Assembly (NCBI GenBank): GCA_030656575.1
Contig: JAUSPO010000133.1
Location: 1-34,744, forward strand
Reading direction: 5' to 3'
DNA from: Bacillota bacterium
GTDB taxonomy: Bacteria > Bacillota > Dethiobacteria > DTU022 > UBA8154
DNA: 34,744 nucleotides
In this document: positions 11,049 to 34,744 of the stretch, in pieces
How positions within the stretch are numbered: the stretch's first letter is position 1
Layout: the number at the start of each line of letters is the position of its first letter
Made by a program: the position numbers and the translations under genes
Notes under the pieces: generated by a model
The model's input: only the letters and a program-made list of their open reading frames with translations
The model's database searches: none
What the model was told of the DNA's origin: nothing

Positions 11049-11371
11049 TTAAGTGGCTCTGCCTCCTTGAAAAATTTTTTTTACTTACAGCAAGATTTTT
11101 TGCACCACCGCTAAGCCACGGGGACGGTTCCATCGTCTTCCCACTAGCTATGGTAAGGCGACACACCCCATTTTTCAAGTGGTATGGGGACACACCCCTC
11201 CGGGGAATGTCCCCTATGAATGTCCCCAAGTCTTCGCTACGCTACGGTGACGCTCGAACCGTCCCCAAGCTTCACTTATCTTTTATCTGAGTAGTTACAA
11301 ACTTTTTTTATTTTTTTTTAAGTAGTTTCTATAATATGATCAAATAAATTCACTATCTATAAAAGAAATAG
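11049..11371. other. gyrB-gyrA intergenic region with REP-like inverted repeats
   Basis: This 323-bp gap has no gene. Inverted copies of GGGGACGGTTC at 11120-11130 (forward) and 11256-11266 (reverse) frame the block. Inside are a 29-bp unit (11157-11185) shared with the region after ilvN and several GGGGACA/TGTCCCC words that can form hairpins. The left-most part next to gyrB (11290-11371) is AT-rich. A promoter for gyrA could lie here, but I cannot assign one with confidence. Confidence 0.65.
11120..11266. repeat. REP-like element with terminal GGGGACGGTTC inverted repeats
   Basis: The ends are GGGGACGGTTC (11120-11130) and its reverse complement GAACCGTCCCC (11256-11266). They are extended on the inner side by similar sequence (CATCGTC versus a reverse-complement GAGCGTC). 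The same 11-mer is seen at 7049-7059 in front of oadA. Such small palindromic elements are often spread by REP-associated transposases; no transposase is present here. Confidence 0.7.
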
Positions 11372-13300
<1,929 letters not shown>

Positions 13301-13310
13301 CTATAAAGTA

Positions 13311-13568
13311 TTATTCCCAATTTTTCTCAATCCTCTTTTGCAGTGTAAGCGGAGATATAGGGGAATAGTAAACTTTTTTAGTGGTTACGACAAAGGAGTT
13401 TAATGCTTTTTCTTCTTCTCTGGTTACTTTTTCGCCCGGGCGGCTTTCCAGAAACTGAGTGTTTACCTGGTTATTTTTGATCTCAAGATTAAAAATGCCA
13501 ATAATTTCCTGCAGGGATACAACGCGTGAATTTCCAATATGTAAAAACAATTCCTTTTCCCCCTTCAT
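13311..13568 (-). CDS. remB: RemB-like DUF370 regulatory protein
   Basis: This 85-residue protein matches the small DUF370 family encoded between recF and gyrB in Bacillus (YaaB/RemB). It has the conserved opening LFLHIGNSRVVSLQEIIGIFN. RemA-type relatives bind DNA and regulate matrix and osmolyte genes, but the role of RemB itself is less clear, so function is assigned only by family and position. The C-terminal half (KVYYSPISPLTLQKRI) is also family-like. Its ATG overlaps the stop of the DUF721 gene (ATGA), indicating coupled translation, and it precedes gyrB by 25 bp. Confidence 0.88.
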   Translation of the reverse strand: MKGEKELFLHIGNSRVVSLQEIIGIFNLEIKNNQVNTQFLESRPGEKVTREEEKALNSFVVTTKKVYYSPISPLTLQKRIEKNWE

Positions 13569-14467
13569 GAATTTATTAACTGATTAAGCCCTGGAAAACA
13601 ACCTAAAATATTAACAATATCCCCTTCTTCGATTTCTGGAGGCTCTTTCTCTGCAGCCAATAAAACATAACGATGCGCAGCTTTTTTTAAAATTTTTATT
13701 TGAATTGTTTTGTCGATACGGTTATTTCCCAGCGTTTTTAATATGCGCTTTTCATGGCCTTCCATTACTGTCTTTTTACATACAGAAAAAATCCTTTCAT
13801 CCAGAAAAGGATGTTTTTCTTTAACTGCATTATATTTTATCCAAGGACTGTTGTAAAAAACATTTTTTAATATCTTCATCCAACTGACTATTTTTTGAAG
13901 ACAATAAGGGCAAAATTCATCATCGGGGTATTTTTTAAAAAAAGGATCGTTACATACCCTGCATGAAATTGCTCCTTTTTCTTTTTTCCATTTATCTCTT
14001 AAAAAGCTTTTTTTAAAAATTATCCTTAGTTGATTTCTAAAATATTCTGGTGACAATTGGAGAGCTCTTTCTATTTCTTCTTCTTCTTTTGGCGCAAGGT
14101 TTATATGGCCGTTATGGGAAAAATGATTTTTCTCTGTTAAGTTGGCACTTTCCTGTCTCTTCTCGGATAACTCGCGAGCATAGAAATCTTCATTGATAAA
14201 CTTTATTTTGGAAATCATTTTTGAGCCAACATGTTCATTAAATTCATCAATAATTTTTTCCTGAAGCATATTAAGGTGGTATACCCAAATACTGTCGTTA
14301 ACTTCAACAAAAAGTGTTTCTTCTTTAATTTTAACTGGCCTGGTGTATTGGGCAACATGCTCTCCTGCAACTTTTTCCCAAACAAAAAGATATTCCCTTT
14401 TTTTAAGTTGACTCTTTAAACCGCTTCTTTCAAGAAAAACTTCAACAGAATGTCCTACTTTTTCCAT
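13565..14467 (-). CDS. DUF721 (DciA-like) protein with C-terminal zinc-ribbon extension
   Basis: Residues 1-95 form a DUF721 domain (FLERSGLKSQLKKREYLFVW, then WEKVAGEHVAQYTRP and LFVEVNDSIWVYHLNMLQ). The family includes DciA, which helps load or control the replicative helicase in many bacteria, and such genes often sit next to recF near oriC. What is unusual is the length, 300 residues. After a charged linker comes a four-cysteine ribbon, CRVC...CPYC (about residues 178-198), then a basic region up to the end. The extension's function is unknown; a nucleic-acid-binding or structural ribbon is a reasonable guess. It overlaps recF by 26 bp upstream and remB by 4 bp downstream, so all three are likely made together. 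Confidence 0.8.
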   Translation of the reverse strand: MEKVGHSVEVFLERSGLKSQLKKREYLFVWEKVAGEHVAQYTRPVKIKEETLFVEVNDSIWVYHLNMLQEKIIDEFNEHVGSKMISKIKFINEDFYARELSEKRQESANLTEKNHFSHNGHINLAPKEEEEIERALQLSPEYFRNQLRIIFKKSFLRDKWKKEKGAISCRVCNDPFFKKYPDDEFCPYCLQKIVSWMKILKNVFYNSPWIKYNAVKEKHPFLDERIFSVCKKTVMEGHEKRILKTLGNNRIDKTIQIKILKKAAHRYVLLAAEKEPPEIEEGDIVNILGCFPGLNQLINS

Positions 14468-15605
14468 TTTCTTTTAACTCCATCACTTTTCCTTCACTGA
14501 CATGAAAAAATGAAAAGTCTGAAAACTTTTCTAAAAAAGGCTCAAGATAGTTATCTTTTCTCGTTATAGTAATAAATACCTGTTCGGCGCCTTTAAAAAG
14601 CGAAAAACACTGCTCCATCCTAAATTCATCAAGCTCAGAAAAAAGATCATCCAGTATGAAGAGAGGTTTTTCTTTTTTATCATTAAAAAACTGTATTTGT
14701 GCTGCCTTCAAACTGATAATCGCACTTCGCTGCTGTCCATGAGAAGCAAATCGCCTGGCTTCCCGCCCATCAAGCAAAAACAATAGATCTTCTCTGTGGG
14801 GGCCTAACAGAGAGTAACCCCTTCTCATTTCTTCTTCTTCTGTTTTTTTTATTTCATTTTGAAAAGTTTTTTCTATTTCTTCAATATCTGTTGTTATTTC
14901 TTTAATTCCTAAACAGTTTTCATAAGAAATACTCAATAATTGACTCTCCTGAAATAAACATGCATAATTCCGGGAAGCAAGGCTACTCCAAATTGAAATC
15001 ATTTCATTCCTTATTTTTATAATCCGGCTACCAAAATGAACTATCTGTCTGTTCCAAACATGAAGCATTTCTCTTAATTCTTTTTTTTGGATATTTTCTT
15101 TTAAAATCTTGTTTTTTTGAGCTATGATCCTGTTATAGCGAATAAGATAGTCTCTGTAAAGAGCGCTTATCTGGCATATTTCCCTGTCAATAAAACGCCT
15201 TCTTTCTTCTGGCCCTCTTCTAATCATTTCAAGATCTTCAGGAACGAAAAAAACAACAGGAAAGTTACCTTCCAAAGAAAATTTTTTATCCACTTTTCCA
15301 TTTACTTTTACTACTTTTCTTCTTTTTCCTGTCTCAAAGCCCACTTCCATCTTGTAGGGATGTTTCTGTAGAACTACTGTCCCCTGAATAAAATAGAAAG
15401 GTCTTTCCCATTTAACCAGGTCGCTATCTTTGTAATTTTTAAATGAACGGCCAAAACAAAGGCAGTAGATGGCCTCTAAAAGATTACTTTTTCCCTGTCC
15501 ATTGGCTCCCTGTACAATACAAATTCCCGGCGCAAATTGTAACTTTTCCTTTTCATAGTTGCGAAAATTTGTAAGGATTAAATCTTTTATGAACAAACTC
15601 TGCAC
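14442..15605 (-). CDS. recF: DNA replication and repair protein RecF
   Basis: RecF is an SMC-like ATPase that recognises single-strand/double-strand junctions and helps load RecA at gaps. The 387-residue protein has the opening LILTNFRNYE and Walker A GANGQGKSN at about 33-41. The signature region is SLLGPHREDLLFLLDG plus FASHGQQRS, and the Walker B is LFILDDLFSELD. The annotated start is GTG at 15605. A TTG at 15596 (giving MFIKDLILTNFRNYE) fits the usual RecF N-terminus better and has AAGGGTG six bases upstream, so the true protein may be three residues shorter. It starts 6 bp after dnaN; the S4-domain gene (yaaA) that often lies between them in Bacillus is absent. Downstream it overlaps the DUF721 gene. 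Confidence 0.96.
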   Translation of the reverse strand: MQSLFIKDLILTNFRNYEKEKLQFAPGICIVQGANGQGKSNLLEAIYCLCFGRSFKNYKDSDLVKWERPFYFIQGTVVLQKHPYKMEVGFETGKRRKVVKVNGKVDKKFSLEGNFPVVFFVPEDLEMIRRGPEERRRFIDREICQISALYRDYLIRYNRIIAQKNKILKENIQKKELREMLHVWNRQIVHFGSRIIKIRNEMISIWSSLASRNYACLFQESQLLSISYENCLGIKEITTDIEEIEKTFQNEIKKTEEEEMRRGYSLLGPHREDLLFLLDGREARRFASHGQQRSAIISLKAAQIQFFNDKKEKPLFILDDLFSELDEFRMEQCFSLFKGAEQVFITITRKDNYLEPFLEKFSDFSFFHVSEGKVMELKENGKSRTFC

Positions 15606-15611
15606 CCTTAC

Positions 15612-16760
15612 CTAAATGCTTTTTTTATCAACTTTAATAGGCAAAACCAGGTATCTGTATTTTGAGGTATCTTCGTCTATCTGTTCTTCAGAATTAATAA
15701 TACACGGTCCATAAGATCCGTTAAAATCAATCTCTGTGTATTCATCATTCAATACCCTTAGAGGATCAAGGATATATCGGGCATTTAGTAATATCTCTTC
15801 CAGATCATCTCCTTCTTTCCTCTCCAGGATTAATTCTTCTTCCATTCTTCCCACTTCCGACCCGGATTTCACCTGAAGAATATTATCTTTTATATGCAGC
15901 GAAATCATTTGATTGTAACCATGGGCTAAAAGTGAAGCTCTTCCAATTGATTTTTCCATAACTCTTGTATTTACCAAAATTTTTGTAACAAACCCTTTAG
16001 GAAAAACATTTGTTAGGTCGGGAAATTTATTTTCTATTAACCTGCCAGCAAAAAGAAACTGCCTGTAGCTGAATATTATTTCATTTTCCTGGAAATAACA
16101 TTGAATCATCTCATCAGAATCATCCAAAATCTTTGCAATTTCCAGTAATGTTTTCCCTGGAATCAGGAGTTGCAGAGGTTCTATTTCTTTTTTTCTCTTT
16201 AAAATATTTAAATGGGCAAGACGGTATGTATCAGAAGATATAAAAGAAACATTATTATGATCATCTACCTGAAATAATACTCCCCTGAATGAAGGTTTTC
16301 CTTCGTCATGTGAAACTGCAAAATTAACTTTTCTTAATATGTTCTTAAATTCATTGGCTGAAAACTCAATACTCCCCCATTTTCTCCACTGTGAGTCTTC
16401 CTTGAATGATGGAAACTCTTCCGGATCCATTCCGTATAGAAAAAAATTTGCTTTCCCACTGATAATCTCTGTGCGAAAATCTCCGGGAGCCATCTTTATT
16501 TCAACATCTTCATGAGGTGACTGTTTCAAAATATCTACGATTTCCCCGGGTAAAACAACCCGCCCTTCCTCAATTACCTGGATATCCTCACATACCGCTT
16601 TAATACTCATTTCTAAATTATTTGATATCATAGTGAGACAATTATTTTTTACCTGCAACAGAACTCCCTGAATTGTGGTTATTGTCGTTTTTAAAGGGAT
16701 ACTTCTTTGCACAATATTGAGGTTTTCCATAAGAATACTTCTTTTTACTGCAAAATGCAC
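15612..16760 (-). CDS. dnaN: DNA polymerase III beta subunit (sliding clamp)
   Basis: DnaN is the ring-shaped processivity clamp for the replicative polymerase and the binding platform for many repair proteins. The 382-residue sequence has the three-repeat clamp layout. The first domain begins MHFAVKRSILMENLNIVQRSIPLK, given here in two parts as MHFAVKRSILMEN and LNIVQRSIPLK. The middle domain has SFRGVLFQVDDHNNVSFISSDTYRLA, shown here as SFRGVLFQVDD and SDTYRLA. The last segment ends YRYLVLPIKV, close to the usual hydrophobic-pocket C-terminus LPIR/LPMR. The start is GTG at 16760 with AGAGGTGA seven bases upstream. Between it and dnaA lies a 292-bp DnaA-box region, so dnaN probably has its own promoter there. 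Confidence 0.97.
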   Translation of the reverse strand: MHFAVKRSILMENLNIVQRSIPLKTTITTIQGVLLQVKNNCLTMISNNLEMSIKAVCEDIQVIEEGRVVLPGEIVDILKQSPHEDVEIKMAPGDFRTEIISGKANFFLYGMDPEEFPSFKEDSQWRKWGSIEFSANEFKNILRKVNFAVSHDEGKPSFRGVLFQVDDHNNVSFISSDTYRLAHLNILKRKKEIEPLQLLIPGKTLLEIAKILDDSDEMIQCYFQENEIIFSYRQFLFAGRLIENKFPDLTNVFPKGFVTKILVNTRVMEKSIGRASLLAHGYNQMISLHIKDNILQVKSGSEVGRMEEELILERKEGDDLEEILLNARYILDPLRVLNDEYTEIDFNGSYGPCIINSEEQIDEDTSKYRYLVLPIKVDKKSI

Positions 16761-17052
16761 AATTAATCACCTCTCGCTGTTAGGCAAACTCTCTTAGATT
16801 ATCCACATGCTCTTCTTTTAATTAATTAATATTTATAAAGATAGTTCTAATAGTAATGCCTGTGAATTTGTTAATATTTCAACATCTTTTCCGTGAAAAA
16901 GAGCTTTCTATAGACTTAATTACTGTGGATAAGAAAATAAAAATATAAACACAATTAACAGGTGGTAAGAATTACAACAAAAATATTGGTTTTTATCCAC
17001 ATTTAAAAGTAAATATACACATATTTACCAAGGTTTGTCCACAGGGTTAAAA
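16761..17052. other. oriC region between dnaA and dnaN (DnaA-box cluster and AT-rich DNA)
   Basis: Perfect DnaA boxes TTATCCACA lie at 16799-16807 (+), 16924-16932 (-) and 16993-17001 (+). A one-mismatch box TTGTCCACA is at 17035-17043 (+). The stretch around 16811-16855 is nearly pure A/T (with TTAATTAATTAATATTTATAA near 16818, given in part as AATTAATTAATATTTATAA) and is a candidate unwinding element. In Bacillus the dnaA-dnaN gap is where strand opening occurs, so this is probably the core of the origin; the unwinding site itself is inferred. Confidence 0.9.
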
Positions 17053-18423
17053 TTAATGTAGAAGCATATTTTTAATTTCTTTGATACAACGCAATAAGGT
17101 TTCGTCTTTAAGCATTTGTGACGAAATTTTTTTGTGGGAATGCATTACTGTTGTGTGGTCTTTTCCTCCAAATTCTTCGCCTATTCGGGGCAGTGAATAG
17201 TCTGTAAGTTCGCGGCAGAGATACATTGCTATCTGCCGTGGAAAAGTGAAATTTTGTGTTCTTTTTTTAGATTTAATATCCTGAACAGATAATTTAAAAT
17301 ATGAAGCTGTAGTGGAAATGATCTGTTCGGCATTTAAATTTCTGTGTTTCTGGGAAAGAAAATCTTTTAAAGCTTCACTGGCAAGCTGCATATTAATTTG
17401 CTTGTCCTCAAGGGAAGCAAAGGCAATAATACGTATAAGAGCGCCTTCTAATTCCCTGATGTTATTTTCATTTTTTTGTGCGATGAACATGAGAACATCA
17501 TCAGGTATAAATATTCCTTCCTGAGAACTTTTTTTACGGAGGATAGCAACTCTAGTTTCAAGGTCAGGGGCTTGAATATCTGTAATTAAACCCCATTCAA
17601 ACCGTGAGCGGAGACGGTCCTCAAGGGTAGGTATCTCTTTGGGCGGCCTGTCGCTTGAAATAATAATTTGTTTATTGTTTTCATGAAGGGCGTTAAAAGT
17701 GTGAAAAAATTCTTCCTGAGTCTGTTCTTTCCCAGCAAGAAACTGTATATCGTCAATTAGCAAAACATCAATGTTCCTGTATTTATTTCTAAATTCGACC
17801 GTCTTGTTATCTCTAATAGCGTTAATAAATTGGTTTGTAAATTTTTCTGAAGACAGATAGTCTACTTTTTCACTAGTGTTGTGTGAAATAACATAATGAC
17901 CAATTGCATGCATAAGATGAGTCTTACCCAGACCTACGCCTCCATAAATAAAAAGAGGATTATAGGCTTTTGAGGGAGCCTCTGCAACAGCAAGGGATGC
18001 TGCATGCGCCAGGCGGTTACTTCCTCCGATTACAAATGTTTCAAATGTATACTTTGGATTTAACCATTTGCAAACGCCGGAAAGGTCTTTTTTTGTATTG
18101 TGATTATCGGGATTGTTGTTATTTAATGATGGCTGCTTTTGAAAAGTATTATTTGTTTCAGGAATGTCAATATTTTGTGGAGTGACAAAGTGTATGTAGT
18201 AATCGCAATTTGTCACTTTTTGTAATGCCCTTGATATGTTTTTTCTGTAATGATTTTGGAGCCAGTCTTTCGTAAATTCATTAGGTACTTCAATCATAAT
18301 TGTTTCATTTTGAAGAGCAATTGGTCTGATGGTTTTTAACCATGTTTCAAAACTTGGTTTACTAAGAATTTTTTCCATTTCCGAAAGAACTGAGCGCCAG
18401 ATTGCAGACAAACGCTCTTCCAT
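17053..18423 (-). CDS. dnaA: Chromosomal replication initiator protein DnaA
   Basis: DnaA binds TTATCCACA boxes at oriC and, as an ATP-bound filament, opens the DNA for helicase loading. I take the ATG at 18423 ([10 protein letters not shown], 456 aa) because GGAGG lies 7 bases upstream; a longer frame from 18471 reads through promoter-side DnaA boxes. Domain I spans about residues 1-80. A short Asn-rich linker (about 90-112) follows. The AAA+ domain has Walker A GGVGLGKT at 161-168 and Walker [11 protein letters not shown] near 224. Domain IV carries the DNA-binding signature [15 protein letters not shown] near the C-terminus. It is flanked by box clusters on both sides and reads leftward, divergent from rpmH, as at most Firmicutes origins. 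Confidence 0.98.
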
Positions 18424-18440
18424 TGCGTAACCTCCGTTAC

Positions 18441-18520
18441 TTATCCACAAATACCATAAAGTTTTCCACAAAACCTGTGGAAAACTGGTTTTAGAAGATA
18501 AAGATGTTGTTTAATCCACA
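18441..18520. promoter_or_regulatory. DnaA-box cluster upstream of dnaA
   Basis: A perfect TTATCCACA is at 18441-18449. A perfect inverted repeat of near-boxes, GTTTTCCACA and TGTGGAAAAC around AAACC, occupies 18461-18485. Another near-box, TAATCCACA, is at 18512-18520. These sit between the dnaA promoter and the start codon, the usual place for DnaA autoregulation, and probably form the second half of a bipartite origin. Confidence 0.88.
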
Positions 18521-18525
18521 GGACA

Positions 18526-18554
18526 ATAATATCAGAATTACTTGTTAACTGCAA
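18526..18554 (-). promoter_or_regulatory. Probable sigma-A promoter of dnaA
   Basis: On the minus strand TTGCAG (18554-18549) and TATTAT (18531-18526) are spaced by 17 bp. The start of transcription would fall near 18519, inside the near-consensus DnaA box at 18512-18520, consistent with self-repression. Confidence 0.65.
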
Positions 18555-18664
18555 TTAAAATTTAACACCTCTTAGGACGCTGAGTCTACTATAATTGTTT
18601 TAGATCTGTTAATAACTCTTTTTTCCACCAATTAAAAGAATATATTAAAAGAAAGCATGAAATG

Positions 18665-18693
18665 TTGCATCATTTAAAAAGATAAGTTATAAT
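18665..18693 (+). promoter_or_regulatory. Sigma-A promoter of rpmH operon
   Basis: TTGCAT (18665-18670) and a perfect TATAAT (18688-18693) are separated by 17 bp. The predicted start near 18700 leaves about 54 bases of leader before rpmH, which has an AGAGAGG ribosome site. Confidence 0.85.
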
Positions 18694-18753
18694 GAATTCC
18701 AGAGTTTTACTGTATAAAAATGATAGAAATCCAGACAAAGAGAGAGGATATTT

Positions 18754-18888
18754 ATGAAAAGGACATATCAACCAAAAGTAAGAAAACGCAAGAGAGTTCA
18801 TGGATTCAGAAAAAGAATGAGAACACTGGCTGGTAGAAATGTACTCAGAAGGAGAAGAAATAAAGAAAGAAGAAGATTATCTGCTTAA
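18754..18888 (+). CDS. rpmH: 50S ribosomal protein L34
   Basis: L34 is a small basic protein of the large ribosomal subunit. The 44-codon frame reads [18 protein letters not shown] followed by [18 protein letters not shown] and ends RRRLSA, a full-length match to the family pattern. An AGAGAGG site precedes the ATG. The stop codon TAATG overlaps the first base of rnpA, so the two are translationally coupled, as in most bacteria. It begins the rightward replichore genes. Confidence 0.98.
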
Positions 18889-19250
18889 TGAAAGAAGATC
18901 AGGAAAGGCATTCTGGAAAAATTGAAAAGCTTCGAAAAACGTTTCAGTTTCAGAAAGTGTACAGACAGGGAAGATCTGTGGCTACGCAAAGTACAGTTCT
19001 ATTCTTAAAAAGAAATGATCAACCTTACAACAGGATCGGAGTGTCAATTAGTAAAAAAGTTGGAAAAAGTGTTACCAGGCATAGATTAAAGAGATTGTAT
19101 TTAGAGGCTTATAGAAATCTTAAGCCTGAAATATTGAAAGAAGGATATGACCTTGTTATTATAGCTAGAAAAGGTGCAGGTAACCTCACTTATTCAGAAG
19201 CACTTCAAGATCTGAGGAAGCTTATGTTGAGAGGAAAGTTGTTAAAATGA
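18888..19250 (+). CDS. rnpA: Ribonuclease P protein component
   Basis: RnpA is the protein partner of the catalytic RNase P RNA, which cuts 5' leaders from pre-tRNAs. The 120-residue basic protein has the typical start region [15 protein letters not shown], the [20 protein letters not shown] segment (shown as [14 protein letters not shown]) and the signature helix. In that helix the usual RNR motif reads RHR ([14 protein letters not shown]). The C-terminal [17 protein letters not shown] is also standard. Its ATG overlaps the rpmH stop by one base, and its end overlaps yidD by 4 bp. Confidence 0.96.
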
Positions 19251-19465
19251 TTCAAAAAACGATCTTATTCTTTATTATGATCTACAGATCGGTTATTTCT
19301 CCTCTGATACTTCCGAGATGCCGCTTCTATCCTAGTTGTTCACAGTATTGTTATGATGCTGTAGAGCAATGTGGAGTAGTAAAGGGGCTATTTTTTAGCA
19401 TAAAAAGAATTTTGAGGTGTCATCCTTTTAATCCTGGAGGGTATGATCCTGTTCCTAAAAAATAA
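19247..19465 (+). CDS. yidD: Membrane protein insertion efficiency factor YidD
   Basis: YidD is a small, membrane-associated protein that assists YidC-dependent insertion. The 72-residue sequence has the family core [18 protein letters not shown] with its cysteines, then [13 protein letters not shown] at the end. A hydrophobic N-terminal helix ([17 protein letters not shown]) is consistent with membrane association. It overlaps rnpA by 4 bp (ATGA) and is followed 42 bp later by yidC, the canonical order. Confidence 0.96.
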
Positions 19466-19507
19466 GAACGAAAACAGGTTTCGCAGAGAATAGAAGGGGG
19501 TCAGTTG

Positions 19508-20377
19508 ATGATCGAAACTTTGGCTGGGTATGTTAATATACTGCTAAGTTATTTTTATATTGTTGCTGGAAGCAACTATGGAATAGCTATAATTATGCTT
19601 AGCGCAGTTGTAAACATTATTACTTTTCCTTTAACCAGGAAACAAATTCAGTCTTCTAAAAAGTTACAGGATATTCAACCCGAACTTAAGAAATTACAGG
19701 AAAAATATAAACATGATAAGGAAAAATATAATAAAGTAACAATGGAATATATGAAGGAGAATAAGGTAAACCCCCTGGGGGGTTGCCTGCCCTTGATTGT
19801 TCAGTTTCCGATCATTATTGCAGTTTTTCATCTGCTTCGTGATCCTTCATTAATTGCCCAAAGAGTCGAGATGCTGGGGTATGAGTTTAGTTCGAGTTTT
19901 CTGTTCGGTTTAGACCTTGTAGAGCCGGATCCTATCTATCTTTTGCCAATAATGGCAGCAGCAGCTACGTTTTTTCATCAGAGAATGGTTTTAACTGACC
20001 CTAAGCAAAAAATGATGCTCTATATATTTCCTGTCATGATTATGGTTATCAGTGTTAGTTTTCCATCCGGTCTTGTCTTATATTGGTTAACAAATTCCAT
20101 TTTTTCTATTGGAAATCATTTTCTGATGAAATCCAGTGATGGAAAACTAAAGGAAATAAAAGATAATGTTAAAAATGGACATCAGGAGAATAATGGCAAG
20201 GCAGATGTAGAAGATAGTAAAGTACGGGAAAATGCAGATGAAGAGAAAGCAATTAATAGTAAAAGGAAGATTAAAAAAGATATAGCAACACCCAAAAAAA
20301 TTAAAGCTGCGGATGGGCCCAAAATTAAAAGGAAATCTACAAAAGGGAAAAAGAAGGGGGCAGGTAAAGACAGATGA
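19508..20377 (+). CDS. yidC: Membrane protein insertase YidC/OxaA (SpoIIIJ family)
   Basis: YidC inserts proteins into the cytoplasmic membrane, alone or with Sec. I choose ATG at 19508 because GGGGG ends 7 bases before it; a TTG at 19505 is too close. The 289-residue protein has five expected hydrophobic segments, the first at about 20-43 and others near 85-110, 130-150, 165-180 and 185-210. Features include the cytoplasmic hairpin PLTRKQIQSSKKLQDIQPEL (given as PLTRKQIQSSKK) and PLGGCLPLIVQFPI. It lacks the N-terminal lipobox of the Bacillus proteins. The last 80 residues are a long Lys/Glu-rich cytoplasmic tail, as in YidC proteins that contact ribosomes. jag overlaps by 4 bp. Confidence 0.95.
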   Translation: MIETLAGYVNILLSYFYIVAGSNYGIAIIMLSAVVNIITFPLTRKQIQSSKKLQDIQPELKKLQEKYKHDKEKYNKVTMEYMKENKVNPLGGCLPLIVQFPIIIAVFHLLRDPSLIAQRVEMLGYEFSSSFLFGLDLVEPDPIYLLPIMAAAATFFHQRMVLTDPKQKMMLYIFPVMIMVISVSFPSGLVLYWLTNSIFSIGNHFLMKSSDGKLKEIKDNVKNGHQENNGKADVEDSKVRENADEEKAINSKRKIKKDIATPKKIKAADGPKIKRKSTKGKKKGAGKDR

Positions 20378-21000
20378 GATCGCTTGAAATTACTGCTAAA
20401 ACCGTAGAAGAGGCCCTTGAAGAAGGCATAAAGCAATTGGGTGTCCGAAAAGAAAATACCGCGGTTGAAATTTTAAATGAACCGTTTCAGGGTTTACTAA
20501 AATTTCTCGGTTCAAAGCCTGCAAAAGTAAAATTAACTGTTATTAAGGAACCTGAAGAGTATATGAAAGATTTTCTGAAAGATATTATCGATATTATTGG
20601 CCTTGAGGGGGAAGTTATCAGTAAAGTGGAAGAAAACGGGGAAGATGTTACCCTGAACATAAACGGGAAAGACTTGGGATTGTTAATTGGAAAGAGAGGT
20701 AATACTCTTAATGCGCTTCAGTATTTATCTAATGTGATTCTGCACAGGCAGTTTACTTTATCTAACGGAAGAACAATCGTTGATATTGAAAATTATCGGC
20801 AGAAGCGAAGGGTAACTCTGGAACAGCTGGCAAAAAACTTGGCCGATAAAGCGCTTAGAACAAATAAAGAAGTTATTCTCGAACCCATGAATCCCCAGGA
20901 TAGACGTATCATTCATCTGGCACTTCAGGATAGCAGAGATGTTACCACTCATAGTCATGGAGATGAACCGTATCGCAAAGTAGTTATTTCTCCACGCTAA
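20374..21000 (+). CDS. jag: RNA-binding protein Jag/KhpB (SpoIIIJ-associated)
   Basis: Jag (KhpB) is an RNA-binding protein linked to cell-division and envelope control in Firmicutes. The 208 residues comprise a Jag N-terminal domain (1-55, with EEALEEGIKQLGV), a KH domain around GKDLGLLIGKRGNTLNALQYL (shown as LLIGKRGNTLNALQYL) and a C-terminal R3H domain ending RDVTTHSHGDEPYRKVVISP. All three parts are intact. The ATG overlaps the yidC stop by 4 bp. A terminator follows at 21029-21062, so the rpmH-jag unit ends here. Confidence 0.95.
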   Translation: MRSLEITAKTVEEALEEGIKQLGVRKENTAVEILNEPFQGLLKFLGSKPAKVKLTVIKEPEEYMKDFLKDIIDIIGLEGEVISKVEENGEDVTLNINGKDLGLLIGKRGNTLNALQYLSNVILHRQFTLSNGRTIVDIENYRQKRRVTLEQLAKNLADKALRTNKEVILEPMNPQDRRIIHLALQDSRDVTTHSHGDEPYRKVVISPR

Positions 21001-21028
21001 TCAGGTTACTCTAAAGGAATGTTTGTTG

Positions 21029-21062
21029 CCGCATCTGTCCATAAAAAGACGATGCGGTTTTT
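21029..21062 (+). terminator. Intrinsic terminator after jag
   Basis: CCGCATC (21029-21035) pairs with GATGCGG (21051-21057), extended by GTC/GAC inside with one bulged base, and is followed by TTTTT (21058-21062). It separates the rpmH-jag operon from the mnmE promoter. Confidence 0.88.
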
Positions 21063-21130
21063 AGATGGTGAAACATTATTATACATTGATGTATTCCGTA
21101 GGGGCATGTTAGTAAGAATTACAGAAATAC

Positions 21131-21159
21131 TTGAAGTGGTCGGGAAAATATGGTATAAT
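21131..21159 (+). promoter_or_regulatory. Promoter of mnmE-rsmG
   Basis: TTGAAG (21131-21136) and TATAAT (21154-21159) lie 17 bp apart, and TGG directly before the -10 gives an extended -10 (TGnTATAAT). About 38 bases separate the likely start from the mnmE ATG. Confidence 0.85.
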
Positions 21160-21202
21160 GCGAACAAGTGGTCGTATAAAATATCTTAAAGAAGATTAGG
21201 TG

Positions 21203-22633
21203 ATGGTTGTGGAATATGAAGACGACACCATTGCTGCTGTATCTACTCCTCCGGGGGAGGGTGGCATTGGTATTGTTCGGATGAGCGGGGATGCCTCTCT
21301 GTCTATAGCATTAGAGATATTTGCACATTCAAGGTTGCGTGGGAAGAAAGATTTTTTTCAAAAAATGGAATCACTTCATCCACGGAATCTTTACTATGGT
21401 TATATTGTGGATGAAGCGGGTAATGAATTAGATGAGGTGCTTCTTAGTTATATGAAAGCTCCTTATACCTATACTAGTGAAGATGTTGTAGAAATAAACG
21501 CGCATGGCGGCATTGTCCCACTACAAAAGATCTTACATTTAGTCCTGAGAAAAGGCGCGCGACTTGCTGAGCCCGGAGAATTTACAAAAAGGGCTTTTTT
21601 AAATGGAAAAATTGACTTGGTTCAGGCTGAAAGTGTGCTTTCGCTGATTAGGGCAAAAACTGAAAAAGGGTTAAAAGCTGCCTTGCAAAGTTTGCATGGT
21701 TCTCTTTCAAAAGAAATTAAGCAAATGCGTGAAGAGCTTCTAAGTATTATCTCTCAAATAGAAGTGGAAGTGGATTTTTCTGAAGAGGATCTTGACCTGG
21801 AAGAGGCAGTCTACAGAAATATTAAGGAGAAGTTAATGCTAATCAAGGAAAGACTGGAAATTCTTTTGGAAAAGAGAAATCAAGGAAAAATCTTACAAGA
21901 TGGTTTAAAAACTGTCATTGTGGGTAGGCCAAATGTTGGAAAATCCTCACTATATAATTATCTGATTAGAGAAGAAAGGGCAATTGTTACAGAAATTCCG
22001 GGAACTACAAGGGATCTTTTAGTAGAGTTTGTAAATTTAAATGGAATTCCACTGAAACTGATCGATACTGCCGGTTTTCGCGAAAACGGTGATCGGGTTG
22101 AAAAAATAGGCATGGAATTTTCTAAAAGAGCAATGCGCGAAGCAGATCTTCTTTTGTTTATGCTGGATGCGGAAACTGGTATTACCCAGAAAGATAGGTG
22201 GATATATGATAGTATCTTTGATGAAGGTAATAATCCAAAATTAATAGTAATCATCAACAAGGTGGATCTGACTCAAAAAATTACTACAGATGAAATAAAA
22301 CGATTATTTTCCGCTGACCGTATTGTTGAAATATCTCTTTTGGAAGGGACAGGTCTGCAGGAACTTGAAGATACTGTTACAGATGCTGTATTTAAGGGAA
22401 ATGTAACGAGGGATGAGGGCGTTATAGTTCTTGAAGCCCGACAGGGAAATCTGATTTCCAAAGCTGCTCAAAATATCACAGAGGCTCTTGATGCCCTTGA
22501 AGGTAAAATCCCCCCTGACATTGTCAGTATTGACATAAAACAGGCCTGGAAGCATCTGAGTGAACTTCTTGGAGAAGATATTAAAGATGAAGTATTAGAT
22601 TATATCTTTAGTCGGTTTTGTATTGGAAAGTAA
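21203..22633 (+). CDS. mnmE: tRNA modification GTPase MnmE (TrmE)
   Basis: MnmE, with MnmG, builds the 5-carboxymethylaminomethyl group on wobble uridine 34 of certain tRNAs. The 476-residue protein starts with the folate-binding domain (DTIAAVSTPPGEGGIGIVR). It has the inserted GTPase domain with G1 GRPNVGKSS near 241-249, G3 DTAGFRE and G4 NKVD, and ends with the catalytic-cysteine motif FCIGK. I use ATG 21203, after GAAGATTAGG; a GTG one codon upstream and another at 21209 are alternatives. It has its own promoter. The next gene is rsmG, which overlaps only marginally. The partner gene mnmG, normally between them, is absent from this window. Confidence 0.96.
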   Translation: MVVEYEDDTIAAVSTPPGEGGIGIVRMSGDASLSIALEIFAHSRLRGKKDFFQKMESLHPRNLYYGYIVDEAGNELDEVLLSYMKAPYTYTSEDVVEINAHGGIVPLQKILHLVLRKGARLAEPGEFTKRAFLNGKIDLVQAESVLSLIRAKTEKGLKAALQSLHGSLSKEIKQMREELLSIISQIEVEVDFSEEDLDLEEAVYRNIKEKLMLIKERLEILLEKRNQGKILQDGLKTVIVGRPNVGKSSLYNYLIREERAIVTEIPGTTRDLLVEFVNLNGIPLKLIDTAGFRENGDRVEKIGMEFSKRAMREADLLLFMLDAETGITQKDRWIYDSIFDEGNNPKLIVIINKVDLTQKITTDEIKRLFSADRIVEISLLEGTGLQELEDTVTDAVFKGNVTRDEGVIVLEARQGNLISKAAQNITEALDALEGKIPPDIVSIDIKQAWKHLSELLGEDIKDEVLDYIFSRFCIGK

Positions 22634-22658
22634 GAACATTCTTAAGGGTGGAGATATG

Positions 22659-23390
22659 ATGCCGCAGGTTAATATGGGAGCGCTTGAAATTATTGAAGCA
22701 GCAAAATCCTGGCGCCTTTCCCTTACTTTAGAGCAGGCCATTCATTTTGTGAAGTATTTGAAGCTTTTGCTTCAGGAGAATGAAAAATATAACTTAACAC
22801 GTATTATTCAACCGGAAGATATCCTTGAAGAGCATTTTTTAGATTCCCTGGCGGGGCTGAAAGAGGGGCATGAAGAAACCGGTCCTTCTTTGTTAGACTT
22901 AGGCAGTGGGGCCGGGTTTCCCGGATTACCTCTAAAAATCTTTCTCCCCCATCTCAAAGTAACTTTATTAGACGCGTCCAGAAAGAAACTCGAATTTTTA
23001 AGGTTTGTTATAAAAGAATTGGAACTGGAAGAGGTAGGGGTACTACATCAGAGGGCTGAAGATCTGGGAAGGGGTGGGGGTAGAGAAGGATACTCCTGGG
23101 TTACGGCCAGAGCGCTTGCTCCATTGGTCGTAATTGCAGAGATAGCGCTTCCGCTGGTCAAGGTAGGAGGTTTTTTATGGGCCCTTAAGGGACCCGCTGC
23201 TTTTGATGAGTTAAATGAAGCTGAGGTTATTATCCGACTTTGCGGGGGGAAGTTGATTAAGAACATATCTTATGATTTGCCGCGGACAGGAAAAAGAAGA
23301 AATATCCTGATCTTTAAAAAAATTAGATCTACGGAGAGTTCTTTTCCACGCAAGGCTGGAATCCCGCAAAAAAGACCTTATATAAAATAA
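22659..23390 (+). CDS. rsmG: 16S rRNA (guanine527-N7)-methyltransferase RsmG (GidB)
   Basis: RsmG methylates G527 in 16S rRNA using S-adenosylmethionine; loss gives low-level streptomycin resistance in several bacteria. I take the second of two ATGs (22659), 5 bases after GGTGGAG, giving 243 residues. A TTG at 22623 would extend it into mnmE. The SAM-binding motif is LLDLGSGAGFPGLPLKIFLP (residues about 68-87), with LDASRKKLEFL after it, ERAEDL-like HQRAEDLGRG, and VTARALAPL. The C-terminal end is Lys/Arg rich. It is cotranscribed with mnmE. Confidence 0.95.
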   Translation: MPQVNMGALEIIEAAKSWRLSLTLEQAIHFVKYLKLLLQENEKYNLTRIIQPEDILEEHFLDSLAGLKEGHEETGPSLLDLGSGAGFPGLPLKIFLPHLKVTLLDASRKKLEFLRFVIKELELEEVGVLHQRAEDLGRGGGREGYSWVTARALAPLVVIAEIALPLVKVGGFLWALKGPAAFDELNEAEVIIRLCGGKLIKNISYDLPRTGKRRNILIFKKIRSTESSFPRKAGIPQKRPYIK

Positions 23391-23495
23391 TAGAAAAGCA
23401 GGAGAATCTTTCCTCATGTCGAATAATTACAACATATAGAATAATCTATATTTATTGGAGTGAAGATTTTTCTTTAAAGCGAGGTGTATTTATTA
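23391..23495 (+). other. noc leader region with a conserved-looking motif
   Basis: The 105 bases before noc hold AGCAGGAGAATCTTTCCTC followed by ATGTCGAATAATTAC. I recall similar AGGAATTTTCC...ATGTCGAATA strings upstream of genes in related clostridia, but I cannot check this. No terminator for rsmG is evident. The GCGAGG at 23479-23484 is the likely ribosome site for noc. Confidence 0.35.
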
Positions 23496-24344
23496 ATGAA
23501 GGAGAGCTGGGGGAAAAAGCTCGGATTGCATGGCAAGGAAGAGGAAATGGAAAACATTCAAAAGGTTAGCATTGATTTGATGCGTTCCAATCCTTATCAA
23601 CCAAGAAAAACATTTGAAGACGAGAAAATAGTGGAACTGTCTCAATCCATTAAGACATACGGATTGCTTCAGCCAATTATTATAACAAATGATGGAACAG
23701 GCTTTTGTATTGTTGCGGGCGAACGGAGGCTTTTGGCTTGTAAAGCACTGGGTTGGGCTGAGATCCCTGCTATAATCAGGGAGTATAGTGGAAGTTCAAT
23801 GGCGGCTGTAGCATTAATAGAAAATCTGCAGAGAGAAAATCTTGATTTCATGGAAGAAGCATATGGGTATAAGAGACTTATTGACGAATTTGATTTAACT
23901 CAGGAAGTTCTTGCCCAGAGGCTTGGTAAAAGCCAGTCTACAATTGCCAATAAATTACGATTGTTAAAACTGCCTGATGATGTTAAGGAACTGCTCAGAG
24001 AAGGAAAACTGTCGGAAAGGCATGCGCGGGTGCTTTTAAAGCTGGATACACTAGAGAAACAACAAGAAGCAGTAAATTTAATGATTGAACTGGATATGAA
24101 TGTAAAAGAAGCAGAACAGCTTATCCAGGAAATTAAAAAAAGTGGAAATACTGAACGTGTATCTAACCAAAGAAAAGTAGTGATAAGAGATTTGCGGATT
24201 TTTTTAAACACAATTCGGCATGCAATAAGTATTATTCGGAAGGCTGGTATAAATCCACATGTCGAAGAAAATGATTTAAGTGATTATTGGGAAATCCGGA
24301 TTAAACTTCCGAAAAAAGAAAACAATATGTCCGCAACAAAATGA
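23496..24344 (+). CDS. noc: Nucleoid occlusion protein Noc (ParB family)
   Basis: Noc is a ParB paralogue that binds dispersed sites and blocks division over the nucleoid. The start at ATG 23496 (282 aa) is chosen because MKESWGKKLGLHGKEEE aligns with the membrane-targeting amphipathic helix that opens Bacillus Noc (MKHSFSRFFGLGEKEEE, from memory). A start at 23547 would delete it. The ParB N-domain has the CTP-binding GERRLLA box, ALIENLQRENLD and the helix-turn-helix LAQRLGKSQSTIANKLRLLK. The C-terminal dimerisation part is short. Position after rsmG and before soj matches Firmicutes noc (yyaA). A terminator follows at 24379-24410, so soj probably has its own promoter. Confidence 0.9.
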   Translation: MKESWGKKLGLHGKEEEMENIQKVSIDLMRSNPYQPRKTFEDEKIVELSQSIKTYGLLQPIIITNDGTGFCIVAGERRLLACKALGWAEIPAIIREYSGSSMAAVALIENLQRENLDFMEEAYGYKRLIDEFDLTQEVLAQRLGKSQSTIANKLRLLKLPDDVKELLREGKLSERHARVLLKLDTLEKQQEAVNLMIELDMNVKEAEQLIQEIKKSGNTERVSNQRKVVIRDLRIFLNTIRHAISIIRKAGINPHVEENDLSDYWEIRIKLPKKENNMSATK

Positions 24345-24378
24345 AATCGATTAAAGGATGATAAAACATTCCCACTAT

Positions 24379-24410
24379 ATAACCGGGTTTATGTGAACCG
24401 GTTATTTTTA
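24379..24410 (+). terminator. Intrinsic terminator after noc
   Basis: ATAACCGG (24379-24386) pairs with CCGGTTAT (24398-24405), with extra GTT/AA pairing inside, followed by TTTTA. The following AT-rich stretch to 24517 presumably contains the soj promoter, which I could not assign. Confidence 0.85.
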
Positions 24411-24517
24411 TTTCCTTTTTTTAATATAGAAGGAACTATTTTCTTTTTTAACGAATATATAAAGTGTTTGTTAATTAAAATGAATTTTAGATGTTTAAAC
24501 AAAACAGGGGTGAAAAG

Positions 24518-25276
24518 ATGAATGGAGTAATTGCTATTATAAACCAGAAGGGCGGAGTTGGAAAAACCACTACAGCAGTAAATCTGAGCGCTTGTCTGGC
24601 AAGCCTGGGAAGAAGTGTTCTGCTGCTGGATATAGACCCTCAGGGTAATGCAACCACTGGAACCGGATTAGACAAAAACCAGATCAAAGGCTGCATCTAT
24701 GATGCGCTCATTAATGAAATACCGGTGGAAAAGGTTATTTATAAAACAAATCAGGTGAATATGGATGTGCTCCCTGCGACACTTAAGCTTGCAGGAGCTG
24801 AAATAGAACTGGTTTCCATACTTTCCCGTGAAGTTCGGCTGCGCAGCGTTATTAAAAAAATAAAAAATAAGTATGATTATATTTTAATTGACTGTCCTCC
24901 TTCGCTGGGTCTGCTTACAGTTAATGCTTTAACTGCTGCTGATACTGTCCTTGTGCCGATTCAATGTGAATACTACGCTCTTGAAGGTTTGGGGCAGTTG
25001 GTAAATGTTATTACTCTTGTAAGAAAACATCTTAACCCCAGCCTAAAAATTGGTGGAGCTCTCTTAACTATGTTTGACATAAGGACAAACCTTGCATCAC
25101 AGGTAGCGGAAGAAGTAAAAAAACACTTTGGGGAGTTAGTTTTTGAAACTGTAATTCCCAGAAATGTAAGACTGAGTGAGGCCCCCAGTTATGGAAAAAC
25201 AATTATTGATTATGACCCCCGCAGCAAAGGAGCAGAGGCATATATGATGCTTGCCGAGGAGGTAGTAAATAAATGA
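24518..25276 (+). CDS. soj: Chromosome partitioning ATPase Soj/ParA
   Basis: Soj is the ParA-type ATPase that works with Spo0J in origin segregation and also modulates DnaA. I use ATG 24518 (252 aa), five bases after AGGGGTG; the in-frame ATG at 24491 adds nine atypical residues. The deviant Walker A KGGVGKTT is at residues 11-18, the Walker A' region LLDIDPQGNATTG near 40-52, and Walker B YILIDCPPSLGLLT near 119-132. EAPSYGKTIIDYDPRSKGA is at the end (shown as EAPSYGKTIIDYDP). It overlaps spo0J by 4 bp, so the two are translationally coupled. Confidence 0.96.
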   Translation: MNGVIAIINQKGGVGKTTTAVNLSACLASLGRSVLLLDIDPQGNATTGTGLDKNQIKGCIYDALINEIPVEKVIYKTNQVNMDVLPATLKLAGAEIELVSILSREVRLRSVIKKIKNKYDYILIDCPPSLGLLTVNALTAADTVLVPIQCEYYALEGLGQLVNVITLVRKHLNPSLKIGGALLTMFDIRTNLASQVAEEVKKHFGELVFETVIPRNVRLSEAPSYGKTIIDYDPRSKGAEAYMMLAEEVVNK

Positions 25277-26136
25277 ATAAGCAAAGATTGGGAAGAGGAC
25301 TTGATGCCCTAATTCCTAAAGAGGAATATTCGAGCGATAGGGGGGGGATAGTGGAGATTCCTTTGGAAAAAATAAAACCAAATCCTTTACAGCCAAGAAA
25401 AGAATTTAATGAGGAAAAACTAAATGCTCTTGCTGAAACAATCAAAAGTTATGGAGTTATTCAACCTTTAATTGTGCAGAAGGATCAGGAAAATTACGTT
25501 CTGGTCGCTGGCGAGAGAAGATTAAGGGCCGCAAGGCTGGCTGGCCTAAAAGTAGTTCCTGTAGTGGTAAATGAATATGACCATAACCAGCTTATGGAGA
25601 TTGCTCTTGTAGAAAATTTGCAAAGAGAAGACCTTAATCCTATTGAAGAAGCAAGCTCATATAAAAAATTGATAGATGAATTTGGTCTGCTCCAGGAAGA
25701 TTTGGCTAAAAAGCTTGGCAAGAGTCGCTCTTCAATTACAAACTCTATGCGTCTTTTGTTGTTAGATAATGATGTTAAGAAATATCTGGCTGAAGGAAGA
25801 ATTTCAGTGGGTCAGGCGAGACCTCTTTTATCCCTCGCCACGATGGAGGAGCAGAAATCTATCGCTTTACAAATAATTAACAAGGGCTTAAGCGCAAGAC
25901 AGGTAGAGAAAATGCTCAAGTCTCTCAAAAAAGAAATAGAAACATCTGTAGTAAAAGAGGAGAGCACGGCTCCTTCGCAAGTAAGAGAACTCTTGCTGAA
26001 AGAAATGGAGGATAAAATAAGAAAAGTATACGGAACAAAGGTATCAATAAAAAGCGGCCTGAGGGACGGAAGGGTCGAAATCTTTTTTTATGACGATCAA
26101 GACTTAGACAGATTGGTTGAACTGCTCTTAAAGTAA
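25273..26136 (+). CDS. spo0J: Chromosome partitioning protein Spo0J/ParB
   Basis: Spo0J is the CTP-dependent DNA clamp that loads at parS, spreads, recruits SMC and regulates Soj. The 287-residue protein opens with RLGRGLDALIP, the basic segment that stimulates the Soj ATPase. The N-domain follows with GERRLRAARLAG (CTP box) and ALVENLQREDLNPIEEA. The helix-turn-helix is LAKKLGKSRSSITNSMRLL. The C-terminal dimer domain ends VEIFFYDDQDLDRLVELLL. Ten bases after its stop is a perfect parS site. The strong similarity to Noc upstream reflects the known duplication in Firmicutes; the Noc-type amphipathic tip is absent here, which separates the two. Confidence 0.96.
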   Translation: MNKQRLGRGLDALIPKEEYSSDRGGIVEIPLEKIKPNPLQPRKEFNEEKLNALAETIKSYGVIQPLIVQKDQENYVLVAGERRLRAARLAGLKVVPVVVNEYDHNQLMEIALVENLQREDLNPIEEASSYKKLIDEFGLLQEDLAKKLGKSRSSITNSMRLLLLDNDVKKYLAEGRISVGQARPLLSLATMEEQKSIALQIINKGLSARQVEKMLKSLKKEIETSVVKEESTAPSQVRELLLKEMEDKIRKVYGTKVSIKSGLRDGRVEIFFYDDQDLDRLVELLLK

Positions 26137-31294: not shown

Positions 31295-32392
31295 ATGGGG
31301 TTTCAGTGCGGACTTGTTGGACTTCCGAATGTAGGTAAGTCTACGCTTTTTACAGCTCTTTCCAGCATTCCGGTGGAAAGAGCAAAATTCCCCTTTTCAA
31401 CTGTTGAACCTAATCGCGGTATAGTTCCAGTCATGGACGACCGCCTCTTCAAAGTGGCCGGGCTCGTTTCTTCGGAGGAAATTACTCCCGCAACATTGAA
31501 GATTGTTGACATTGCAGGCCTCATTAAGGGCGCTGGCAGGGGTGAGGGTCTTGGAAACCGCTTCCTGGCGCATATTAGGGAAATGGATCTCCTGCTCCAT
31601 GTGGTCAGGGGTTTCAGTTCCCCTGATGTTCCTCATCTGGCCGGGGAGCCGGACCCCTGCAGGGATATTGAGATTGTGGAATTGGAACTAATTTTTGCTG
31701 ATCTTAACTTCATAGAAAAAAAGCAGGAAAAGATGGTGCGCACTATAAAGAGTGGCTCTGCAGACCTGATCGCGGAAAAAGAGCTTCTCGAAAAATTGCA
31801 TGCTCACCTTAACGAAGGGCAAACAGCGAGAAGCATGCTTCTTTCCGAAAAGGAAGAGTTAATCATAGAAGACTGGCAGCTGCTCACCGTAAAGCCTGTT
31901 ATTTATGTTATAAATACCGGCGAGGATGAACTGGTTCAGCAAGAACCGGAAACTGTGAAGAGTGTTAAGCTTTTTGCAGAAGAGTCAGGGTCTCCTGTGA
32001 TCAGCATTTGTGCATCTCTTGAAGCTGAACTTGAGGGATTAGGTGAAAAAGATAAAATTCTATTTATGAATGAGTACGGACTAAAGGAAACCGGCTTGAA
32101 CAGACTCACAAAATTGGGATATGATTATCTTGGACTGATCACATTTTTTACATTAAAGGGCAGGGAAGCAAGAGCATGGGCAATCAAAAATGGCACGACA
32201 GCTAAAAGAGGAGCAGGAAAAGTACACAGTGATATGGAGAGAGGCTTTATCGCTGCAGAAGTTATTTCATGGGATGAATTAATTAGAATCGGATCCCTGG
32301 CTGCGGCAAAGGAAAAGGGTGTTTTAAGGTTGGAAGGACGGGATTACGTTGTCCGGGACGGCGATGTGGTCCTTTTTCGATTTAAAGTTTAG
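31295..32392 (+). CDS. ychF: Ribosome-binding ATPase/GTPase YchF (EngD)
   Basis: YchF is a universally conserved Obg-family P-loop NTPase that prefers ATP and is implicated in translation and oxidative-stress response. The 365 residues include G1 GLPNVGKSTL at about 8-17, the Switch region PFSTVEPNRGIVPV, G3 DIAGLIKGAG.GEGLGNRFLA (shown as DIAGLIKGAGRGEGLG), the NTGE in place of the classic G4 NKxD, and the C-terminal TGS-like domain with AWAIKNGTTAKRGAGKVHSD (shown as AWAIKNGTTAKRGAG). Start ATG 31295 follows AAGGGGGTAG. It is the usual upstream neighbour of rpsF, but here an AI-2E family gene and repeats intervene. Confidence 0.96.
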   Translation: MGFQCGLVGLPNVGKSTLFTALSSIPVERAKFPFSTVEPNRGIVPVMDDRLFKVAGLVSSEEITPATLKIVDIAGLIKGAGRGEGLGNRFLAHIREMDLLLHVVRGFSSPDVPHLAGEPDPCRDIEIVELELIFADLNFIEKKQEKMVRTIKSGSADLIAEKELLEKLHAHLNEGQTARSMLLSEKEELIIEDWQLLTVKPVIYVINTGEDELVQQEPETVKSVKLFAEESGSPVISICASLEAELEGLGEKDKILFMNEYGLKETGLNRLTKLGYDYLGLITFFTLKGREARAWAIKNGTTAKRGAGKVHSDMERGFIAAEVISWDELIRIGSLAAAKEKGVLRLEGRDYVVRDGDVVLFRFKV

Positions 32393-33004: not shown

Positions 33005-33033
33005 TTGCGGAGGTGCAAGTTCATCTCTATAAT
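33005..33033 (+). promoter_or_regulatory. Probable sigma-A promoter of the AI-2E family gene
   Basis: TTGCGG (33005-33010) and a perfect TATAAT (33028-33033) are spaced by 17 bp. Transcription would start near 33040, which rules out the in-frame GTG at 33013 as the start and supports ATG 33073. Confidence 0.7.
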
Positions 33034-33072
33034 AGAGATAGAGGGTACTTTACACTGGAAAGGACTAAGCGG

Positions 33073-34119
33073 ATGCGTGATAAGGATTCAAAAGGCTTTA
33101 TCAAGATTGTTGCCTTAATAGCGTTGCTCGTGGGGATTGTTTGGTTTTTGAACCGCATTTCCTGGGTAATAAATCTTGCTATTGTAAGTTTATTAATAGT
33201 TTATGTTCTTTTCCCCATTACTGAATTTCTGAAAAGGCGTTTTCGGTTTTCCCATGTTCTGGCGGTTGGTGTAACTTTTCTATTTTTTCTTTTGATGATT
33301 GTAACCCTTATAAGTTTAATTGTGCCGATTGTCAGCTTTGAGGTTCAGGATATTTTAGCAGATCTGCCATACTACGCCAGGCAGATACAACTGTATACTG
33401 AGGAATTTTCAACCTATTTGCTCACATTCGACCTGAGCCCTGAGTTTATGGAGTCAATTCCTGATATTTCAGCAAACATACAGCCTATTCTTGAAGAGAT
33501 TGCTTTTATCAGTATTTCAGTTGTTGGAAGTTTTGTGGATATTTTCTTCATAACTTTTATTGTTTTTTATCTCCTCTATGATTTTCAAAATGTTAGAAAT
33601 TCAATTCTGCAGCTAATCCCCCGCGAATACGAAAGATATGCAAATGATGTTATCCAAATCATAGACAGAAATTTTGGAGGATATATCAGGGGGAATATTG
33701 TCCGCTGTACAGTTGTTGGTATTATTACGGGGTTAACACTATATTTTATGGGAATGCCCTATGCTTTTCTTCTGGGAGTACTGGCCGGTGTCCTAAATAT
33801 CATCCTCTATATCGGACCGTATATTGCAGCAGTACCTGCAGTTATTTTGAGTTTTACCCCTCATACACCCTCTCCCGTGGTTATCATTATTGTTTATATT
33901 TTAGTGCAGTTAATTGACGGGATGGTTTTGTCTCCAATGCTGCTCGGCAGGGCGGTAAAGCTTAAGCCAATTACAGTAATTATCTGTCTGCTCGTTGGGC
34001 AGCAGCTTGCCGGAATACTAGGCATGATTCTTTCCATACCTTTTGCCGGTATTGTTAGGAGCCTGATTGAATACGTTAGGGATGAACGAAAAAAAGTAAG
34101 GAGGACGAAAGTTCAGTAG
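33073..34119 (+). CDS. AI-2E family transporter (PerM/YtvI-like)
   Basis: This multi-pass membrane protein belongs to the AI-2E exporter/PerM family, whose members are proposed permeases; the substrate cannot be told from sequence. From ATG 33073 (348 aa; GGAAAGGA eight bases upstream) it has hydrophobic segments near residues 10-28, 30-50 and 62-85, an extracytoplasmic loop (about 90-150), and several more helices in the second half. The conserved region is GYIRGNIVRCTVVGIITGLTLY (shown as GYIRGNIVRCTVVGIITG), followed by GVLAGVLNIILYIGPYIAAV-like sequence and DGMVLSPMLLGRAVKLKP. The C-terminus is basic. Family members often sit near oriC or tRNA synthetase genes; here it lies between ychF and rpsF. 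Confidence 0.9.
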   Translation: MRDKDSKGFIKIVALIALLVGIVWFLNRISWVINLAIVSLLIVYVLFPITEFLKRRFRFSHVLAVGVTFLFFLLMIVTLISLIVPIVSFEVQDILADLPYYARQIQLYTEEFSTYLLTFDLSPEFMESIPDISANIQPILEEIAFISISVVGSFVDIFFITFIVFYLLYDFQNVRNSILQLIPREYERYANDVIQIIDRNFGGYIRGNIVRCTVVGIITGLTLYFMGMPYAFLLGVLAGVLNIILYIGPYIAAVPAVILSFTPHTPSPVVIIIVYILVQLIDGMVLSPMLLGRAVKLKPITVIICLLVGQQLAGILGMILSIPFAGIVRSLIEYVRDERKKVRRTKVQ

Positions 34120-34231: not shown

Positions 34232-34297
34232 TAAGCCTGCATTATCCCTGCTCCCTTTTTTGTAAAGGGGGCCGCGAGACCGAAGGGAGGTGAAAAA

Positions 34298-34744
34298 ATG
34301 CCACTATATGAAGTTATGTATATTGTCCAGCCTGATCTGGATGGAGATGATTTGGAAACTGCCATTTCCAAGGTTAGTGATGTTATGGAAAAAGAGGGCG
34401 GCGAAATTGTATCCCTGAAAAAAATGGGTAAAAAGAAGCTCGCCTATGAGATTAATGATATAAAAGAAGGATCTTACGTTCTTGTAAATGTACAGGCAGG
34501 CGGTGGTTTGGCTCCAGCCCTGGACCATTTCTTTAAGGTAAATGAAGGGTATTTACGTTATATCATAATCCGCCTGGAAGAAGCAAAAAAAGCTGAACCT
34601 CAACTAGCAGCACAAAAGGAAGTCCCGGAAGTCGAAGTTCAGGAAGTCGAAGTTCAGGAAGTCGAAGTTCAGGAAGTCGAAGTTCAGGAAGTCGAAGTTC
34701 AGGAAGTCGAAGTTCAGGAAGTCGAAGTTCAGGAAGTCGAAGTT
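34298..34744 (+). CDS. rpsF: 30S ribosomal protein S6 with repetitive EVEVQ C-terminal tail (partial)
   Basis: S6 is a small-subunit protein that binds 16S rRNA as a dimer with S18. The first 95 or so residues are a normal S6: MPLYEVMYIVQPDLDGD, KKMGKKKLAYEINDIKEGSY, then GYLRYIIIRLEE. After a short A/E/K linker (residues 95-110) the frame enters a perfect 15-bp tandem repeat, GAAGTCGAAGTTCAG, encoding EVEVQ from residue 111. Seven full units and 12 bases of an eighth fit before the window ends at codon 149 without a stop. AAGGGAGGTGA precedes the ATG at a good distance. S6 usually begins the rpsF-ssb-rpsR operon; the next genes lie outside. The tail's true length and role are unknown. Confidence 0.95.
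   Translation, partial: MPLYEVMYIVQPDLDGDDLETAISKVSDVMEKEGGEIVSLKKMGKKKLAYEINDIKEGSYVLVNVQAGGGLAPALDHFFKVNEGYLRYIIIRLEEAKKAEPQLAAQKEVPEVEVQEVEVQEVEVQEVEVQEVEVQEVEVQEVEVQEVEV
34628..34744 (+). repeat. 15-bp tandem repeat inside rpsF
   Basis: Seven identical copies of GAAGTCGAAGTTCAG (34628-34732) and 12 bases of an eighth (34733-34744) run to the window edge. Perfect DNA identity including synonymous positions suggests recent slippage or unequal exchange rather than old selection on protein alone. Confidence 0.97.

Follow-up and report, generated by a model that had tools for sequence, protein, structure and literature searches.

The window analysed here (34,744 nt) is the entire contig C127 (G000:C127) of a genome assembly of 195 contigs and 2.99 Mb that is 99% complete. 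It ends within rpsF, the gene for ribosomal protein bS6, whose reading frame starts at position 34298 and is still open at the end of the contig (Table 1). The first ~95 residues match the Pfam family Ribosomal_S6 with an E value of 4e-24 and a score of 85 bits against a cut-off of 27, and the core also scored 71.4 in the NCBIfam model, for which the cut-off is 42.9. The structure predicted by AlphaFold2 from 39 sequences has the alpha/beta fold of S6, with pLDDT values of about 95 or higher for residues 1-90, and consists of strands at residues 3-10, 36-52, 55-66 and 85-93 and helices at residues 16-32 and 71-81. With regard to the region upstream of rpsF, an Rfam search for a leader RNA gave no match for this gene. 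Elsewhere in the window, a T-box leader RNA at 5119-5368 on the minus strand (Rfam RF00230, 106.5 bits) precedes a branched-chain amino acid operon (aminotransferase, ilvD, ilvB and ilvN, named by eye), and two near-identical 29-bp direct repeats are found at 196-254, downstream of the ilvN-like gene. A set of origin-region genes, likewise named by eye, occupies 8583-26136, with gyrA, gyrB, recF, dnaN and dnaA on the minus strand and rnpA, yidC, jag, mnmE, rsmG, noc, parA and parB on the plus strand; the distance between rpsF and dnaA is about 16 kb.

Table 1. Features of the rpsF locus; positions refer to the window unless another contig is named
Feature	Position	Strand	Basis
ychF, conserved upstream synteny marker	31295..32392	+	TIGR00092; synteny in relatives
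AI-2E family transporter, upstream neighbour, conserved synteny marker	33013..34119	+	Pfam PF01594; position kept in relatives
Shine-Dalgarno-like AAGGGAGGTG, 5' of rpsF	34283..34292	+	direct reading
rpsF, S6 core, residues 1-95	34298..34582	+	Pfam PF01250, NCBIfam TIGR00166, AlphaFold2
Tail lead-in, non-repeat, AKKAEPQLAAQKEVP (first EVP unit 34619-34627)	34583..34627	+	sequence
Perfect 15-bp tandem array, EVEVQ units, up to contig end	34627..34744	+	lag-15 periodicity
Array continuation, EVEVP units, then EVKDDSKEE and stop	C135 (L002:1-130)		frame continuous with rpsF

Downstream of the lead-in, where an EVP directly precedes the first EVEVQ, the frame enters an array of 118 nt made up of seven full GAAGTCGAAGTTCAG units (34628-34732) and one partial unit. 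The initial annotation had described 7.8 copies of a 15-bp unit at this place, and its coordinates, unit and copy number are correct, the 15-bp period being perfect throughout. The array produced 103 consecutive lag-15 matches; 20 Markov shuffles of the window gave no more than 13, and the remainder of the window itself no more than 19. It is by far the top-scoring tandem array of the window and is far beyond chance, and its copies do not show a single silent difference.

Since the window is a complete contig, the missing end of the array is due to a break in the assembly and not to the cutting of the window. Searches of the same genome with the S6 protein and with the repeat led to a second contig, C135, the first 106 bases of which have a perfect 15-base period of a sister unit, GAAGTCGAAGTCCCG (EVEVP, about seven units), and run in frame into EVKDDSKEE and a stop codon. 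The frame is thus not broken right after position 34744 but stays open into C135, which bears out the earlier claim of a genetically encoded acidic S6 tail. The description as EVEVQ units is incomplete in that the array is not uniform: the C135 side consists of EVEVP units, and an EVP stands before the first EVEVQ. The tail stop is followed by ssb, rpsR, a 102-aa open reading frame (orf102) and rplI, as expected for the rpsF-ssb-rpsR(-rplI) operon of bS6. In relatives the gene order is ychF, AI-2E transporter, rpsF, ssb, rpsR, (orf102,) rplI, and here the first part of this order is found on C127 and the second on C135, which also carries the only rpsR of the genome. The joining of the two contigs is strongly supported by the reading frame, the related repeats on both sides, the synteny and the presence of only one rpsR, although no contig spans the junction and mixed strains in the metagenome bin may complicate it; in the rest of the genome the repeat search gave only isolated matches with two mismatches. 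A search for the repeat DNA in viral contigs found none. The sequenced parts of the tail comprise 54 and 42 residues with net charges of -15 and -16, so that the sequenced parts have a net charge of -31 and the whole tail, with the middle of the array unassembled, has at least about 96 residues.

To place this tail, we compared it with S6 proteins from relatives. All 20 complete S6 proteins of the same family (Dethiobacteraceae by NCBI taxonomy; named members include Dethiobacter alkaliphilus) carry a Glu-rich tail of 17-85 residues, which is net negative in 19 of them. Of the 28 complete S6 proteins from other families of the order, 7 are tail-less and 21 have tails of 50-133 residues with net charges from -12 to -47; the lengths in this part of the order (L034-L062) look bimodal, with no intermediates between none and at least 50 residues. 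Among the other Bacillota S6 proteins examined, most stop only a few residues past the core (one sample was partly picked for long frames). Moreover, several S6 tails of order relatives have in-frame tandem repeats of their own with unrelated units, namely 18 bp x10 (L044), 45 bp x3.2 (L051), 27 bp x4 (L050) and 15 bp x3.5 (L033). The tail studied here resembles those of the family and the order in gene, position, operon and net charge, whereas such an array is lacking from the tails of the Dethiobacteraceae relatives, and those in other families are longer and in some cases built from unrelated units. As judged from these comparisons, the acidic S6 tail is a trait of the lineage, and repeat expansion inside such tails appears to have occurred repeatedly. 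Two observations stand beside this survey: L177 (G105:C10), from another family of the phylum, has the S6 tail TKVVEDIKVVEDTKVVEDTKVVEEDKG with an independent 18-bp x3.9 tandem repeat, and L064, a public MAG titled Desulfovibrio sp. DeMMO6_36, has a Dethiobacter-like rpsF locus, so that the title of the record looks wrong.

The nearest relatives (a Dethiobacter sp. and another bin) are 74-75% identical in the S6 core and have non-repetitive tails of 22 residues, EKKEQKNEKEIVENVQEDNKEE and EKKGQKTNNEIVENVQENSKEE, each running up to the stop. These tails end in VQEDNKEE and VQENSKEE, similar to the VKDDSKEE of the genome with the EVEVQ array, the KEE end being shared. The relatives searched include no second genome of this genus. 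Read-through of a fixed intergenic gap was rejected as the source of the tail because the spacing between S6 and ssb in the relatives grows with tail length.

A link to S6 glutamylation had been suggested earlier, together with a search for a rimK homologue. In stationary-phase E. coli, RimK attaches as many as four Glu to S6 (PMC10931766), and in Pseudomonas the glutamylation of S6 by RimK has effects on the proteome and on the composition of ribosomes (PMC4741518). A Glu-rich tail might thus act as an encoded substitute for RimK, giving S6 a permanently negative C-terminus with the repeat number setting the dose. In line with this, no RimK scored over the cut-off in the source genome (best PF08443 score 13.7 bits versus 21) or, with TIGR00768, in any of 60 relatives (0/60), with E. 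coli positive as the control, and the tail is acidic, with C-terminal residues (DDSKEE) that could serve as an acceptor for RimK. We nevertheless consider such a substitution unlikely. All 60 relatives lack RimK, those with an S6 tail as well as those without, the tail-less members of the order included, and in a sample of the phylum a RimK-family gene was found in 11 of 199 genomes, mostly alongside tail-less S6, most sampled Bacillota having neither. A tail therefore cannot be predicted from the lack of RimK, the suggested link finds no support, and an exclusivity or coupling of RimK and tail across the phylum was rejected, as no pattern emerged. The tail also differs from RimK-glutamylated S6 in kind: an acidic S6 C-terminus with C-terminal Glu is common to both, but here the acidic residues are gene-encoded among Val, Gln and Pro, and a constant tail of 96 or more residues is far longer than the regulated mark of at most four Glu. 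A bolder version, in which a RimK-less lineage would have swapped enzymatic S6 glutamylation for an encoded polyanionic tail that slippage can tune, its number of repeats adjusting how the ribosome behaves from strain to strain, seems very doubtful.

With regard to structure, AlphaFold2 (single chain) predicted the tail to be disordered, with pLDDT values of about 41-54 (below 50 for residues 96-141) and neither strand nor helix past residue 93, which places it among disordered extensions. The beta strands proposed in the initial annotation are thus not seen in the model, and long strands are also disfavoured by the proline present in every EVEVP unit; an extended acidic brush, the other form proposed, would be the better picture. 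C-terminal extensions of bS6 occur throughout bacteria; most such extensions of ribosomal proteins are predicted to be disordered and their function is elusive, but the one on Mycoplasma pneumoniae S6 is ordered in part, and on the ribosome it shows secondary structure and a long loop that could be traced (PMC9534751). By analogy, the repeats could have been selected to bind a partner such as ribosomal proteins, translation factors or the mRNA exit region, and the acidic character kept throughout the order would agree with this. Such a role appears improbable, however, as neither the sequence nor the length of the tail is conserved even within Dethiobacteraceae, and the single-chain model shows no structure. 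The S6 of M. pneumoniae likewise has, after the core, a C-terminal extension specific to its lineage, whereas the extension described here is encoded by a near-perfect tandem array with a 15-bp period, consists of pentapeptides rich in Glu and Val, and is predicted to be disordered. A search of openly accessible literature gave no description of an acidic S6 tail built from tandem repeats, which is no proof that none exists.

That the assembler created or inflated the repeat is highly improbable: C127 does end within the array and short-read bins break at repeats, but the units at the two independent contig ends differ while being related, each end is joined to its correct unique flank, a real array longer than a k-mer or read would break on both sides in the same way, and tandem tails in other S6 genes are assembled in full.

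We thus favour, with good but not full confidence, the reading that this is a normal bS6 with a long, disordered polyanionic tail, in which the acidic tail standard for the family was recently inflated by slippage, is brush-like and is tolerated in its length. In Dethiobacteraceae such tails mostly have about 20-40 residues. The repeats look as if they were inserted into an ancestral short acidic tail, since the 22-residue tails of the nearest relatives end similarly. The recent expansion claimed at the outset is supported by the lack of silent differences between copies, which indicates a recent event or ongoing homogenisation, and by the close relatives having an acidic tail of ~22 aa and no repeat at this place. 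The most likely process is replication slippage of the 15-bp unit, which would have enlarged the middle of the tail while always keeping the frame. EVEVP units probably came first and EVEVQ units after: with EVP in front of the first EVEVQ and EVEVP at the close of the array, the simplest account is that EVEVQ arose later as a variant within an EVEVP array and expanded there. In assembled ribosomes this tail would most likely extend outwards from the platform of the 30S subunit and form a flexible, charged brush. Its role is probably at most that of such a polyanionic brush under weak length constraint, with acidic composition loosely maintained and length tolerated rather than tuned; the negative charge that persists over the whole order nevertheless points beyond simple tolerance.

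Ribosomal proteins generally count as conserved, and here a protein of the 30S subunit tolerates a long, apparently fast-changing acidic repeat, presumably in every ribosome. In this RimK-less group, acidic S6 tails are a trait of the whole lineage, and their natural differences in length can be used to study the effect of negative charge at the C-terminus of S6, an effect that is unsettled for RimK glutamylation in E. coli (PMC10931766).
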